This document shows positions 2,075 to 16,192 of a stretch of 64,000 bases of DNA, piece by piece. Origin of the DNA: Marinomonas colpomeniae (lineage in GTDB: Bacteria > Pseudomonadota > Gammaproteobacteria > Pseudomonadales > Marinomonadaceae); the NCBI RefSeq assembly GCF_014803385.1, contig NZ_JACYFC010000001.1, positions 516,136 to 580,135 of the forward strand, written 5' to 3'. Under the pieces are notes generated by a model. The model did no database searches. It had not been told where the DNA came from and saw only the letters and a list, made by a program, of their open reading frames with translations. The translations under genes were made by a program, and so were the position numbers. Numbering within the stretch: position 1 is the first letter of the stretch; the number at the start of each line of letters is the position of its first letter.

Positions 2075-3094
2075 ATGAAAGCCATTGTGTACTCAATGAT
2101 GCTTCTTATCTTAACAGGTTTTTTTCCTAATATAGTTCTGGCCGAAGAAGTAGCAAATGAGCCTGAATTAGTAGTAGAAAATCCAGTTAACTGGGACGAA
2201 GAAAACTTAGAAAGTGATAGTGAAGAAGGCGAAGATCTTTCATTTTCGCCAGCTGAACCAGAAGTTCCGGAGTCTATTTCAAAGCGAGCTCTAAAAGCAA
2301 ATGGACTGCTCCAACAAAGAAGAAATAGAGAAGCAGATACGGTTAATAACCCATTTGTATTAACACCCCATAAGCCGAATTATTTTTTACCTTTCGCTTA
2401 TACCTCAAATCCTAATGATCGAGCCTTTTTAGGTAGTAGTGATTCTGAGACTTTGGACAGTGTTGAGTTTAAGTTCCAACTGAGTATTAAGTTTCCCGTT
2501 GCCTATGAGATAGTAGGACGCAATACCAGTTTATGGTTTGCTTATACACAACAGTCCTATTGGCAGGCTTACAATAGCGATATTTCAGCTCCTTTTAGAG
2601 ATACTAACTATGAACCTGAAGTCTTTATTGTAACCAAACCAAAACATAGTTTTTTAGGCATGAAGGCAGATTATGTTTCTTATGGATTTGCTCATCAATC
2701 TAATGGTCAATCGGAAGATTTATCCCGTTCGTGGAACCGATTTTATGTGGATTTCTTGTTTGAAAAAGGTAATACGGCATTCTCGTTTAAGCCTTGGTAT
2801 CGTATTCCAGAAAACTCAAGTGAAGATGACAACCCTAATATCGAAGATTATTATGGGTATGGTGAGTTTAGTTTAATACATATTATTGACGATTATAGTT
2901 TTGATGTTATGTTTCGAAATAATCTGAAGTCATCAGGTAATAGAGGCGCTGTACAGTTAGGGTTTAACTTCCCTTTGTGGGGGAAGACACGAGGGTATAT
3001 TCAATATTTTAATGGTTATGGCCAATCATTATTGGATTATGATCACCAAACACAATCCCTTGGTGTGGGCGTTATGTTGACAAATTGGTTGTGA
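2075..3094 (+). CDS. pldA: Outer-membrane phospholipase A (OMPLA)
   Basis: 339 residues with a signal peptide (about 1-23, ending VLA), an acidic linker to about residue 75, and a beta-barrel domain. The PldA active-site block is clear: His207 and Ser209 in GFAHQSNGQS, then Asn221 in SWNR, matching the Ser-His-Asn triad of OMPLA. The enzyme hydrolyses phospholipids that reach the outer leaflet and helps keep outer-membrane asymmetry. The protein is about 50 residues longer than the E. coli enzyme because of the acidic linker. It is transcribed alone: 60 bases separate it from the gene before, and a terminator follows. Confidence 0.93.
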   Translation: MKAIVYSMMLLILTGFFPNIVLAEEVANEPELVVENPVNWDEENLESDSEEGEDLSFSPAEPEVPESISKRALKANGLLQQRRNREADTVNNPFVLTPHKPNYFLPFAYTSNPNDRAFLGSSDSETLDSVEFKFQLSIKFPVAYEIVGRNTSLWFAYTQQSYWQAYNSDISAPFRDTNYEPEVFIVTKPKHSFLGMKADYVSYGFAHQSNGQSEDLSRSWNRFYVDFLFEKGNTAFSFKPWYRIPENSSEDDNPNIEDYYGYGEFSLIHIIDDYSFDVMFRNNLKSSGNRGAVQLGFNFPLWGKTRGYIQYFNGYGQSLLDYDHQTQSLGVGVMLTNWL

Positions 3095-3190
3095 TTTTTT
3101 AGTAGGTGTGAAAAATATCCATTAGGAATATGGAAAGACGCTTATATGTATTTGCGTTCTTTAAGAATATTTCATTAAAAGACATAAGAA

Positions 3191-3216
3191 ATGCCTCGTA
3201 ATTACGAGGCATTTTT
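3191..3216 (+). terminator. Rho-independent terminator after pldA
   Basis: The stem atgcctcg / cgaggcat around a TAATTA loop is followed by five T. It isolates pldA from the Pho-box operon downstream. Confidence 0.8.
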
Positions 3217-3227
3217 GTATATCCCGT

Positions 3228-3267
3228 CTGTCATCAAGCTGTCACTGAAATGCTATGTAACTGACAT
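3228..3267 (+). promoter_or_regulatory. Pho box (PhoB site) and promoter of the PAP2-glycosyltransferase operon
   Basis: CTGTCAT at 3228-3234, a four-base spacer, and CTGTCAC at 3239-3245 form an almost perfect 18-bp Pho box (two 7-bp direct repeats with an 11-bp period). A third related repeat, CTGACAT at 3261-3267, lies on the same 11-bp phase. A -10-like TATGTA starts at 3254, eight bases after the box. PhoB sites normally replace the -35 in this position. The sites are seen directly; control by PhoB is inferred. Confidence 0.75.
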
Positions 3268-3312
3268 TTTTGTCGTCTATGTTAAAGGGATGACAAACAT
3301 AGAGGTAATAGC

Positions 3313-3828
3313 ATGAACATACTTCAGAATATCCATGCATTTGATGTCCAGACTTTCTATTGGTGTATGGCTCGTAAGCACAGAGCTAAATTAACCCGTA
3401 TGGGTCGAGCTATTTCGTTCTCTGCTGATGGGCCTTTGTATGCAGTTGTCGCTCTCTTGGCTTGGACTGCTGGTTATGACACTTTAGTGCTGATTTTAGC
3501 TTTTGGTCTATTACTGGAACGTTGCGTATATTTTGTTTTGAAGCGAGGTTTCAAACGAAACCGCCCCGCAGATGAGCTAGATGACTTTTGTAGCTTTATT
3601 ATTCCTTCAGATCAATTTTCTTTTCCATCTGGTCATACTTCGGGCGCATTCTTTATCGCTTTTTGTTTGAGTGAGTGGTTTCCTAGCTTAAATGTAATGT
3701 TCTACTTCTGGGCCGTTAATGTAGGTTTATCGCGTATTTTTCTTGGTGTCCATTTTCCTACAGATACGATTATTGGCGCTCTGTTAGGGAGTGCTTGTGC
3801 CGCCTTAATGATTGGAGTTTTAGTATGA
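3313..3828 (+). CDS. PAP2-superfamily membrane phosphatase
   Basis: 171 residues with several membrane helices and the three PAP2 signature blocks: the KRGFKRNRP region, PSGHTSG, and SRIFLGVHFPTD with its catalytic histidine. Enzymes of this type dephosphorylate phosphatidic acid, phosphatidylglycerophosphate or undecaprenyl pyrophosphate at the membrane. GAGG precedes the ATG by eight bases. The stop overlaps the start of the glycosyltransferase gene (ATGA), so the two are translationally coupled. A Pho box stands in front. In that setting dephosphorylation of a phospholipid to diacylglycerol is the most attractive role, but the sequence alone does not choose the substrate. Confidence 0.9.
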   Translation: MNILQNIHAFDVQTFYWCMARKHRAKLTRMGRAISFSADGPLYAVVALLAWTAGYDTLVLILAFGLLLERCVYFVLKRGFKRNRPADELDDFCSFIIPSDQFSFPSGHTSGAFFIAFCLSEWFPSLNVMFYFWAVNVGLSRIFLGVHFPTDTIIGALLGSACAALMIGVLV

Positions 3829-4916
3829 AGATACTGTATGGCGTTCAAGGGACTGGAAATGGACATATAACACGAGCTAGGGCCATGGCCGTTGAGATGA
3901 AATTAGCTGGAATAAAAGTTGACTTTGTTTTTTCTGGACGTCCTCCGGAAGACTATTTTGATATGTCGGTGTTTGGTGATTATCGTACTTTTAGAGGCCT
4001 TAGTTTTGTCGCGCGTAATGGTAAATTAAATTTTTTTGCGACTGTTCTAAGCGTCTCAATTCTCAAGCTCTGTCGAGATATTAGATCATTAGATACTCGA
4101 GGCTATGATCTGGTTATTACTGATTTCGAGCCTATTGTTGCATGGGCGGCAAAATCTCAAGGTGTTCTATGCATTGGGTTTGGACATCAATATGCGTTTA
4201 AGCATGATATTCCGCGTTATAAAAAAAATCTTGTTGCTCAATGGGTAATGTCAAATTTTGCTCCATCTACTATTCAGCTTGGCGCTCACTGGCATCATTT
4301 TGGTTATCCTATTTTACCTCCGTTAATTCATGCTGAAGAAATACAGAATATGCCTAATACAGAGCAGGTATTGGTGTATTTACCTTTTGAAAATAGTGAT
4401 GTTGTTTTAGATTTGCTTGAAGAAGTGCCGAGTTACCACTTTCGCTTACATTGTAAAGACATTGATCCAGGTGTTTATGGCAATGTAGAAGTATTTCCTT
4501 TTAGCCGAGATCAGTTCCAACAGAATTTGAACGAATGTGAGTCCGTGCTTTGTAATGCAGGATTTGAATTGAATTCAGAGGCGTTACAGCTTGGACGTCG
4601 TATATTGGTAAAGCCTCTTAAAGGTCAAATAGAACAGCATTCTAATGCTATTGCTTTAGAGCGACTAGGAATTGCGAAAACGACGGCAGTACTGAATTCA
4701 AAAATCATTCAAGAATGGCTAGAGACGAGTCGAGTGGTTCAGGTTAATTATCCCAATGTGGCTCGCGCTGTAGTGGCTTGGTTACAAGTTGGAAACAATA
4801 TGAGTTTATCTGATTTATGTGTATCTTTGTGGCAGCAGACACCTAATGTATCTGGTATCGATTTTACGTATCCTCATAAAAAAAGAAAAATATCCTCAAA
4901 GCCTGTCACTATTTGA
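3825..4916 (+). CDS. MurG-like (GT-B) glycosyltransferase, MJ1255/VC2487 family
   Basis: About 363 residues starting MKILYGVQGTGNGHITRA, the glycine-rich N-terminal loop of GT-B enzymes such as MurG and diacylglycerol glycosyltransferases. The C-terminal half carries a donor-binding region around CNAGFELNSEALQLGRR. The sequence resembles the MJ1255/VC2487 glycosyltransferase family, whose acceptor is not firmly known. The ATG at 3825 overlaps the PAP2 stop. Coupling to a PAP2 phosphatase behind a Pho box suggests that the acceptor is the diacylglycerol released by PAP2, making a phosphorus-free glycolipid (inference). The C-terminus is strongly basic (KKRKISSK), consistent with membrane association. 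Confidence 0.85.
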   Translation: MKILYGVQGTGNGHITRARAMAVEMKLAGIKVDFVFSGRPPEDYFDMSVFGDYRTFRGLSFVARNGKLNFFATVLSVSILKLCRDIRSLDTRGYDLVITDFEPIVAWAAKSQGVLCIGFGHQYAFKHDIPRYKKNLVAQWVMSNFAPSTIQLGAHWHHFGYPILPPLIHAEEIQNMPNTEQVLVYLPFENSDVVLDLLEEVPSYHFRLHCKDIDPGVYGNVEVFPFSRDQFQQNLNECESVLCNAGFELNSEALQLGRRILVKPLKGQIEQHSNAIALERLGIAKTTAVLNSKIIQEWLETSRVVQVNYPNVARAVVAWLQVGNNMSLSDLCVSLWQQTPNVSGIDFTYPHKKRKISSKPVTI

Positions 4917-14304: not shown

Positions 14305-14617
14305 TTATTTAGCTCTAAAAACAGAAATCATTACCTGTAATAAAAGTGTCATGTTTCTGTAGTATATTTGCAACAAGTGCCTTTTGAAGGCACTTTTTTT
14401 TGTCTATATTTTTGGTTTGTCATTCAAAAAGGTTAGGGGTTTTTATCTAGATAAACCCAGTGTAGAATGGCGCCGAATTCATATTTTACAGAAATATGAC
14501 GGAACGAATTAAGTGCCAAATTGATTTGGGATACAATAATTAGGTAGATCATTGTTTCATAACATTATTTATAAACAATGGTTTAGCATAGATTAATTTA
14601 TAGAAAGAAGAGCCCAT
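14305..14617. other. Intergenic region sdaA - PiT transporter
   Basis: It holds the sdaA terminator. At 14550-14580 an 8-bp inverted repeat (cattgttt / aaacaatg) lies just before the transporter gene and may be an operator or leader hairpin. No Pho box was found here. No coding frame is supported. Confidence 0.6.
14374..14401 (+). terminator. Terminator after sdaA
   Basis: Stem aagtgcctt / aaggcactt with a short loop and eight T. Confidence 0.85.
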
Positions 14618-16192
14618 ATGGATCTTACAAATACCCCGAAAGAAGAATCCACTTTATTAGGTGGTCATGAGTTTATACGTGTACTTATTGCCTTAGCATT
14701 TGTATTGGCCGCTGGTTTTTATGCCTCTGTTAATGGACTTGGAGCTTCAAACTTATCAATTTTAGCCATTGCCGCTGCTATTGGGGCTTATATGGCTGTC
14801 AATATTGGTGCCAATGATGTTGCTAATAATGTTGGCCCAGCCGTAGGCTCTAAAGCCTTGAGTATGACTGGAGCGATTTTAATTGCTGCTATATTTGAAG
14901 CCGCTGGTGCATTAATTGCTGGTGGTTCAGTTGTAGGAACGATTAAAAATGGCATTATTAACCCTAATTCTATTGGTGATTCTGCTACTTTCATTTGGGT
15001 AATGATGGCGGCTTTATTAGCCGGTGCTATCTGGTTGAATTTAGCTACGTATCTTGGTGCGCCAGTTTCTACAACACACTCTATTGTAGGTGGCGTATTA
15101 GGTGCCGGTATTGCTGCTGGTGGTTGGGATATTGCAAATTGGGATAAATTGATAGCGATCGTTGCAAGTTGGGTTATTTCACCTGTTTTAGGTGGTGTGA
15201 TTGCGGCTTTCTTTCTAATGTACATCAAGCGTTCAATTACCTATAAAAGCGATATGATTGAAGCGGCGAAGAAAGTTGTGCCTATTTTAGTTGGACTAAT
15301 GGTTTGGGCATTTTCTACTTACCTTATTCTTAAAGGCTTGAAGAAAGTTTGGAAGTTGGATTTTGTAACCGCTGGGATGTTTGCTTTTGCTATTGCTTTG
15401 ACAGTTTATTTTATTGTCCGTCCTATAGTTGATAAAGCAGCTTCGGCATTGAAAAATGATAAGGATGCAGTCAATAGCTTGTTTACTATTCCTCTTATTG
15501 TTTCTGCTGCGTTATTAAGTTTTGCTCATGGTGCAAATGATGTAGCCAATGCGATAGGGCCTTTAGCTGCTATTAACGATGCTTTAATGACTGGGACTGT
15601 ATCTGGTAAAGCATCTATTCCTATCTGGATTATGCTTATCGGTGGTGCAGGTATTGCTGTTGGTCTTGCGTTGTTTGGGCCTAAACTGATTAAAACAGTC
15701 GGTTCTGAAATCACTGAATTAGATAAGACACGAGCATTTTGTGTCGCTATGGCCGCCGCGATCACAGTTATTGTTGCTTCTCAGCTTGGTTTGCCAGTAA
15801 GTTCTACTCATATTGCAGTAGGCGGTATCTTTGGTGTTGGCTTCTTACGTGAATATTTGAAGCAGTCTTATGAGAAAAAATTGACTGCGCTTATCTCTCA
15901 TTCTGAATCCACAGGCCTTGATGGCATGCAGATTCAAGACTTTGTTAAGCGTTTTAAAGTGGCCGATGTTGACGAAAAACGTGCAATTCTTAAAGAGCTG
16001 AAAGCGTCTCAATCTTCTTCACCTATTTCGTCTTCGGAACGAAAAGGCTTGAAAAAAGCGACTAAAAAAGAGTTAGTGAAACGCTCTGCTTTATTGCGTA
16101 TTGCGGCTGCATGGGTGATTACTGTACCTGCTTCTGCTTTACTATCAGCAATGATTTTTTACATGCTACTTGGTTTTTCTGTCGCTCGTTAA
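14618..16192 (+). CDS. pit: Inorganic phosphate transporter, PiT family
   Basis: 524 residues with about eleven membrane helices. Both halves carry the PiT signature: GANDVANNVGPAVGSKALS near residue 65 and HGANDVANAIGPL near residue 305. The paired PVSTTHS and PVSSTHI motifs are also present. This is a low-affinity, ion-coupled phosphate uptake system of the inner membrane. A basic cytoplasmic segment (about 425-495) precedes the last helix. The gene stands alone, with a good terminator. Unlike the PAP2 operon it has no Pho box, which fits constitutive PiT expression. Confidence 0.93.
   Translation: MDLTNTPKEESTLLGGHEFIRVLIALAFVLAAGFYASVNGLGASNLSILAIAAAIGAYMAVNIGANDVANNVGPAVGSKALSMTGAILIAAIFEAAGALIAGGSVVGTIKNGIINPNSIGDSATFIWVMMAALLAGAIWLNLATYLGAPVSTTHSIVGGVLGAGIAAGGWDIANWDKLIAIVASWVISPVLGGVIAAFFLMYIKRSITYKSDMIEAAKKVVPILVGLMVWAFSTYLILKGLKKVWKLDFVTAGMFAFAIALTVYFIVRPIVDKAASALKNDKDAVNSLFTIPLIVSAALLSFAHGANDVANAIGPLAAINDALMTGTVSGKASIPIWIMLIGGAGIAVGLALFGPKLIKTVGSEITELDKTRAFCVAMAAAITVIVASQLGLPVSSTHIAVGGIFGVGFLREYLKQSYEKKLTALISHSESTGLDGMQIQDFVKRFKVADVDEKRAILKELKASQSSSPISSSERKGLKKATKKELVKRSALLRIAAAWVITVPASALLSAMIFYMLLGFSVAR

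Follow-up and report, generated by a model that had tools for sequence, protein, structure and literature searches.

A PhoB-type promoter in front of a coupled PAP2 phosphatase-glycosyltransferase operon in Marinomonas, with a probable role in phosphate-starvation lipid remodelling

The operon and its promoter

The window analysed here is a stretch of 64,000 nucleotides of Marinomonas colpomeniae (G000:C1:516136-580135, from an assembly of 3.7 Mb). It carries, in this order, pldA, a hairpin, a Pho box, a -10 element, a PAP2-type phosphatase gene, a glycosyltransferase (GT) gene and a second hairpin (Table 1). The PAP2 and GT genes are coupled by the sequence ATGA at 3825-3828, in which the GT start overlaps the PAP2 stop, as described in the original prediction that had been made from the sequence alone. 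The families named at that time, PAP2 and a MurG-like GT, are also supported by profile scores above the cut-offs. The PAP2 protein scores 83.4 bits against PF01569 (cut-off 27.2), and the GT matches PF13528 and scores 224.3 bits against the MJ1255/VC2487 family TIGR00661 (cut-off 195.9). The central observation, a Pho box in front of a coupled PAP2-GT pair, is confirmed and proved stronger than first described.

The first two repeats, CTGTCATCAAGCTGTCAC at 3228-3245, fit all 14 specified positions of the consensus, and no other perfect match to CTGTCATNNNNCTGTCAY is present in the 3.7-Mb genome; the box predicted to be nearly perfect is in fact perfect, and the only one of its kind. Two other sites have one mismatch. 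Allowing two mismatches across the whole genome gave 49 sites versus 44 for the pattern read backwards as a control, so only the site without mismatches stands out and the two-mismatch pattern defines no regulon. Alignment of 24 promoters from the same genus revealed four repeats in 11-bp register, which in this genome form a PhoB-type array of 7-bp units, near the consensus CTGTCAT, starting at 3228, 3239, 3250 and 3261. The repeat reported earlier at 3261 is indeed present and in phase, but it is the fourth and not the third, as a degenerate third repeat is located at 3250-3256; GCCAC of this repeat is found in 10/24 congeneric promoters. The two-, three- and four-repeat scores of the promoter were each matched by 0/400 dinucleotide shuffles. 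The correctly spaced -10 element claimed earlier is TATGTT at 3278-3283. A sigma-70 consensus scan of the window did not pick up this element and showed no enrichment of promoters (15 found versus 17.3 expected). Such a miss is expected at promoters in which the -35 element is replaced by a Pho box.

At 61 loci the 150 bp preceding the PAP2 gene were searched for the highest-scoring series of four half-sites, with 28 as the maximum. A score of at least 19 at 11-bp spacing was found for 51/61 promoters, whereas spacings of 8, 9, 10, 12, 13 and 14 bp gave 0 or 1 of 61. Control stretches scored at 11 bp gave 0/61 (-300 to -150) and 1/61 (start of the coding region). Outside Marinomonas the same score is reached by 28 of 37 promoters, compared to 0 or 1 at other spacings, and five further promoters all reach 19 at 11 bp (5/5) and none at other spacings. 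The totals of 61 and 37 count G156 and G159 twice (L068/L170 and L071/L172), and the comparison of boxes among relatives left out L052 and L065-L067, which have no usable PAP2 start, as well as L001. A recognisable box is absent from the M. balearica locus L060, and the arrays before PAP2 are weak in G256 and in Thalassocella. The genome encodes PhoB (348 bits, cut-off 296), PhoR, PstS, PstC and PhoU, all over curated cut-offs, and weaker Pho-like sites precede phoB and pstS. Taken together, this is strong comparative evidence for a predicted PhoB-type promoter driving the pair.

Further Pho-like sites were observed. The site TTGTCATTTTTATGTCAC (L007, G000:C1:512374) is located ~3.8 kb left of the window and ~150 bp before a gene encoding a PhoX alkaline phosphatase (PF05787, 428 bits), and 0/400 shuffles reached the three-repeat score of this site. 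Another, CTGTAATAAAAGTGTCAT at 14335-14352 of the window, precedes by ~265 bp a gene that starts at 14618 and belongs to the Pit/sulfate permease family. The best NCBIfam match of this gene is a sulfate permease, below the cut-off, and it is possibly another Pho-regulated transporter. Between pstS and pstC there is a box, TTGTCATAAAATTGTCAC (L107:16653-16670, minus strand), besides the weaker one before pstS.

The gene 5' of the operon, pldA (2075-3094, PF02253), encodes an outer membrane phospholipase A. It was previously proposed to be set apart by a terminator and probably not part of the operon, and this is borne out by the hairpin at 3187-3216, of which a consensus scan gave only the minus-strand version, and by the pldA promoter, where no PhoB-type array was found (13/21, p = 0.085, and 14/28, p = 0.485, against dinucleotide shuffles). 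With a terminator in between and no array of its own, pldA was rejected as a member of the unit. A pldA match upstream of the pair is kept in 22/24 same-genus loci, despite the terminator between them in this genome. An anti-phage reading of the locus was rejected as well, as PADLOC gave no match.

Table 1. Features of the operon and its flanks (window positions)
Position	Strand	Feature	Support or remark
3187..3216	.	Probable (bidirectional) terminator, a hairpin with T-run, between pldA and the promoter of the operon	Fold -18 kcal/mol, z -6.42
3228..3245	+	Pho box, repeats 1 and 2 (CTGTCAT, CAAG, CTGTCAC)	Single perfect match in the genome; conserved in relatives
3250..3256	+	Third PhoB repeat, ATGCTAT, degenerate in this genome; TGCCAC is the Marinomonas consensus	Promoter alignment
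3261..3267	+	PhoB repeat 4 (CTGACAT), same 11-bp phase	Promoter alignment
3278..3283	+	-10 element TATGTT, 10 bp past the last repeat	TATGTT in 13/24 congeneric promoters
3313..3828	+	PAP2 membrane lipid phosphatase gene, 171 amino acids	PF01569
3825..4916	+	GT-B glycosyltransferase gene, 363 amino acids, MJ1255/VC2487 family	PF13528, TIGR00661
4945..4993	+	Hairpin past the GT gene, probable terminator of the operon	Fold -23.5 kcal/mol, z -6.41

Conservation of the pair and properties of its proteins

The GT is encoded by 27 of 38 relatives, comprising 24/25 genomes of the same genus and three others. Searching related genomes for the same pair with a Pho box had been suggested together with the original prediction, and both were found: next to the arrays described above, a PAP2 gene lies just upstream of the GT gene in all GT-bearing relatives (27/27). 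In a sample of the class (276 genomes), PAP2 was looked for at the 12 best GT loci. It is present in the six genomes where the GT is ~40% or more identical (6/6), and the remaining six loci, with more distant GTs, show none. A sample of the phylum (397 genomes) gave 39 GT matches, of which three weak ones were set aside and 36 strong ones examined; a same-strand PAP2 gene within 75 bp was found in 35/36 of these genomes, three Marinomonas included. No PAP2 match was found in the stretch examined around the GT of Zophobihabitans entericus (L065). The ATGA overlap is present in 37/44 loci, a total that includes the locus of this genome twice (L001, L016).

PAP2 enzymes are defined by the catalytic motifs K-x6-RP, PSGH and SR-x5-H-x3-D. 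All three are present in the operon protein, and residues K77, R84-P85, P105-H108, R141, H147 and D151 are invariant across 30 sequences. Its structure model (mean predicted local distance difference test, pLDDT, 91) has LpxE as its closest fold (Z 22.9, root-mean-square deviation (rmsd) 1.7, 160 residues aligned), followed by PgpB of B. subtilis (Z 20.1, rmsd 2.0, 162 aligned).

The model of the GT (pLDDT 92) folds as a generic GT-B enzyme, with similar matches to YojK (Z 23.1, rmsd 3.5, 307 aligned), UGT51 (Z 21.8, rmsd 3.5, 304 aligned) and MurG (Z 21.2, rmsd 3.7, 284 aligned). A single-sequence search of the PDB gave nothing convincing (best E 0.064), and a profile matched YojK and MurG weakly. 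MGD-type synthases were not among the matches listed by the structure search, which excludes nothing. VC2487 of Vibrio cholerae was named in a single paper among the matches listed; in the part of it available, the gene has a ChiS chromatin immunoprecipitation (ChIP) peak upstream and no assigned function (PMC11856585).

PlcP, Agt and the gene neighbourhoods

A search for plcP in the genome, also suggested at the outset, revealed a homologue of 269 amino acids at G000:C8:603257-604063, on another contig than the pair, recognised by its kinship and by the layout in relatives. The protein is 44-45% identical to three proteins encoded directly before Agt-type GT4 transferases, in the plcP-agt layout of Sphingomonas, Pseudomonas aeruginosa and Roseomonas plasmids, and only 23% identical to the LpxH of the same genome. 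As a scale, PlcP of P. aeruginosa is reported to be 46-47% identical to those of Sinorhizobium and Phaeobacter (PMC8528852). Full-length plcP is present in 25/27 GT-bearing relatives and absent from G023 and G037; the copy in G015 carries an in-frame TAG. Arrays scoring at least 19/28 precede plcP in 18/23 Marinomonas and 17/24 other genomes, versus 0-2 at other spacings. In the class sample plcP is found in 5/6 genomes with the pair versus 72/270 others (Fisher p = 0.007), or in 4/5 when this genome is left out (p = 0.02), both values uncorrected for relatedness and based on counts taken manually with a 180-bit limit.

An Agt-like protein was not found in the genome among seven PF00534 loci, three of which gave only partial tblastn matches to Agt proteins at 22-32% identity and four none; PF00534 detects 4/4 Agt-like proteins tested. 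That PAP2 is used instead of PlcP in this genome was rejected, as the plcP homologue is present with its own conserved PhoB-type array, and what the pair replaces here seems to be Agt and not PlcP. The earlier proposal that another pair of enzymes takes on the same task does not hold for this genome, but it may hold for a Vibrio-like genus (g247), where 9/9 genomes have the pair and 9/9 lack plcP. At the four g247 loci examined the same regulator gene follows the GT gene, and in the one that was scanned it encodes LeuO. This neighbour, together with the naming of the family after VC2487, suggests that g247 is probably Vibrio; VC2485 of V. cholerae we take to be leuO, and two of the papers listed mention both names. 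In this genus the pair may supply its own diacylglycerol without PlcP.

The partnership between plcP, PAP2 and GT genes is rearranged in other lineages. In G256, plcP is followed by PAP2-GT. In G402 (L219:1656-9214) the order is glycerophosphodiester phosphodiesterase (GDPD), metallophosphoesterase (a match just below the Pfam cut-off), plcP, patatin phospholipase, PAP2, GT and a YegS/DAGK lipid kinase, an apparent phospholipid-recycling island. For the region ahead of the GDPD gene the PhoB repeat score is 19/28, a value without shuffle control. A distant PF13528 GT (26% identical) lies 16 bp before plcP in G133, and in G069 an agt-like gene is accompanied by plcP and, where the contig ends, by a PAP2-like match. 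Two Bacteroidetes contigs encode a PlcP-family protein (~35% identical) directly before a TIGR00661-like GT that scores below the family cut-off. Glycosyltransferases after plcP have also been described for plcP locus types 3 and 5 (PMC4796936). These rearranged partnerships are the main reason for placing the GT in diacylglycerol glycosylation, and they back, in several lineages, the link to phosphate-starvation lipid remodelling drawn in the original prediction. The genome comparison as a whole shows the array, the operon, its spread, and its coexistence and clustering with plcP.

Proposed role and comparison with known systems

We consider it probable, from the sequence comparisons, that the operon serves PhoB-controlled lipid remodelling, in which the GT would glycosylate diacylglycerol supplied by PAP2 and, where present, by PlcP. 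At low phosphate PhoB would bind the four-repeat array and both genes would be switched on. The LpxE/PgpB-type PAP2 would dephosphorylate a phosphate-bearing membrane lipid, phosphatidic acid being the likeliest candidate, to yield diacylglycerol and inorganic phosphate, and the GT-B enzyme, at the cytoplasmic face, would transfer a sugar onto diacylglycerol to give a phosphorus-free glycolipid. In Marinomonas diacylglycerol would also come from PlcP, encoded at a separate locus under its own PhoB-type array, and the GT would occupy the place of Agt in the classical PlcP-Agt systems. In the Vibrio-like genus the pair would work without PlcP. Activation by PhoB in cells, phosphatidic acid as the substrate, diacylglycerol as the acceptor and the sugar are what we infer.

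Several observations weigh against this interpretation. The nearest solved relative of PAP2, by both fold and sequence, is LpxE, a lipid A phosphatase, and the fold matches of the GT model give no hint of its acceptor. No recognisable box was found in the Marinomonas genome G021, G156 and G084 have arrays ahead of PAP2 that are unconvincing when scored against shuffles, and the GT of G423 (L224) has no PAP2 match in the stretch examined. Another Marinomonas genome, G022, lacks both GT and plcP. In the plcP promoter of the genome studied here a good two-repeat box is lacking (10/14, p = 0.25); support for it comes from the three-repeat score (p = 0.005), the four-repeat score (matched by 0/400 shuffles) and the conservation of the array. 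Among 36 GT-bearing genomes (33 strong ones from the phylum sample, Marinomonas left out, plus G084, G256 and G251 from the class sample), full-length plcP is present in 20 and absent in 16, the latter including G420, whose match spans 48 residues. Furthermore, G156 and G251 hold a plcP-agt cluster together with the pair, their Agt proteins being 51-53% and 29-31% identical, respectively, to the plasmid Agts. The PlcP-Agt system and the pair can thus coexist, and the pair does not just take the place of that system in every genome. In the available part of a low-phosphate lipidome study of V. cholerae, ornithine lipid accounts for ~90% of the cell lipids and glycolipids are named only in the reference list (PMC13157583), and the word glycolipid is not used in the available part of a second ornithine-lipid paper (PMC12186959). 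The silence of the lipidome counts against an abundant glycolipid in V. cholerae, but it is weak evidence because that study used phospholipid and ornithine-lipid databases only (PMC13157583).

Three other explanations were considered. In the first, an LpxE-type PAP2 could save or release phosphate of lipopolysaccharide (LPS) during starvation, with lipid A or a core precursor as the target of the GT. Aquifex LpxE is the closest solved structure and the best sequence match of PAP2, but the GT, modelled as a compact GT-B fold, would require a cytoplasmic acceptor, whereas enzymes of the LpxE type work on the periplasmic side. Moreover, the pair is linked to plcP, a patatin-type phospholipase, GDPD and a lipid kinase, and the scanned part of those clusters showed no recognisable LPS gene. 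We regard a role in lipid A remodelling as unlikely.

An undecaprenyl-phosphate route, with PAP2 recycling undecaprenyl pyrophosphate and a low-phosphate polysaccharide as the product of the GT, is consistent with the MurG-like fold of the GT, with PAP2 being the sole PF01569 gene found in the genome by profile search, and with weak matches of PAP2 to NCBIfam undecaprenyl-diphosphatases (45.5 and 36.2 bits, cut-offs 250 and 229). The genome also encodes a BacA/UppP undecaprenyl pyrophosphatase (274 bits), however, so PAP2 need not carry this task; the operon has a lone GT with no flippase or polymerase, and the linkage to plcP is recurrent. This route appears quite improbable to us, as does a PhoB-regulated PAP2 that merely harvests phosphate from lipid or soluble phosphates, with the GT in an unrelated role. 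Such scavenging is in line with the match of PAP2 to class A acid phosphatases in sequence searches and with phoX and its Pho-like site ~7 kb away, but the tight coupling of PAP2 and GT, both in the phylum sample (35/36 genomes) and through the ATGA overlap (37/44 loci), argues for one pathway.

Extending the preferred reading, lipid remodelling through diacylglycerol glycosylation, to the whole family is a bolder proposal, for which we see about even chances. The MJ1255/VC2487 GTs would be phosphate-starvation diacylglycerol glycosyltransferases that, across much of the Gammaproteobacteria and including Vibrio-like genera, form with PAP2 a PlcP-independent route from phosphatidic acid. Vibrios should then make a PhoB-dependent glycolipid, one that the ornithine-lipid studies cited above were not designed to find. 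If true, a GT family so far named only after loci would gain a function, vibrios would be predicted to have a second class of phosphorus-free lipid, and glycolipid synthesis during phosphate starvation in Gammaproteobacteria would be wider than surveys of plcP and agt would find. Metagenomes from phosphorus-stressed marine waters would need re-reading, as plcP alone misses the 16/36 GT-bearing genomes that have no full-length copy.

Compared with known systems, the operon PAP2 shares fold, size and catalytic motifs with the LpxE and PgpB phosphatases, but its gene, unlike theirs, follows a PhoB-type array and shares an operon with a GT gene. The operon GT belongs to the same family as VC2487, and Vibrio-like relatives keep PAP2 before GT and have PhoB-type repeats as well, with a LeuO-family gene coming next. 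In plants and cyanobacteria a phosphatidic acid phosphatase provides diacylglycerol for glycolipid synthesis, a route that in plants is induced by phosphate starvation. Dephosphorylation of phosphatidic acid feeding a diacylglycerol glycosyltransferase, as proposed here, resembles that route, the regulators being unrelated. Remodelling by OlsF in V. cholerae likewise yields a phosphorus-free lipid at low phosphate, with vc0489 in the Pho regulon (PMC13157583, PMC12186959); its product, however, is an aminolipid, and OlsF is a bifunctional acyltransferase.

The closest parallel is the PlcP-Agt system for glycolipid synthesis in phosphate starvation, known from Agrobacterium, SAR11 and Pseudomonas aeruginosa (PMC4796936, PMC8528852). 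Control by a Pho box, predicted for the operon, is common to both, as is, in our proposal, the combination of a diacylglycerol-producing enzyme with a glycosyltransferase, and plcP itself lies under a PhoB-type array in this genome. The operon differs in its enzymes, PAP2 phosphatase and MJ1255-family GT taking the place of PlcP metallophosphoesterase and GT4 Agt. The gene plcP is located elsewhere or is absent, being on another contig in this genome and in the same cluster in G256, G402 and the two Bacteroidetes. No open-access paper about the PAP2-MJ1255/VC2487 pair was among the matches listed, as judged by titles and the openings of abstracts. The process is known, and the enzyme pair appears to be new.

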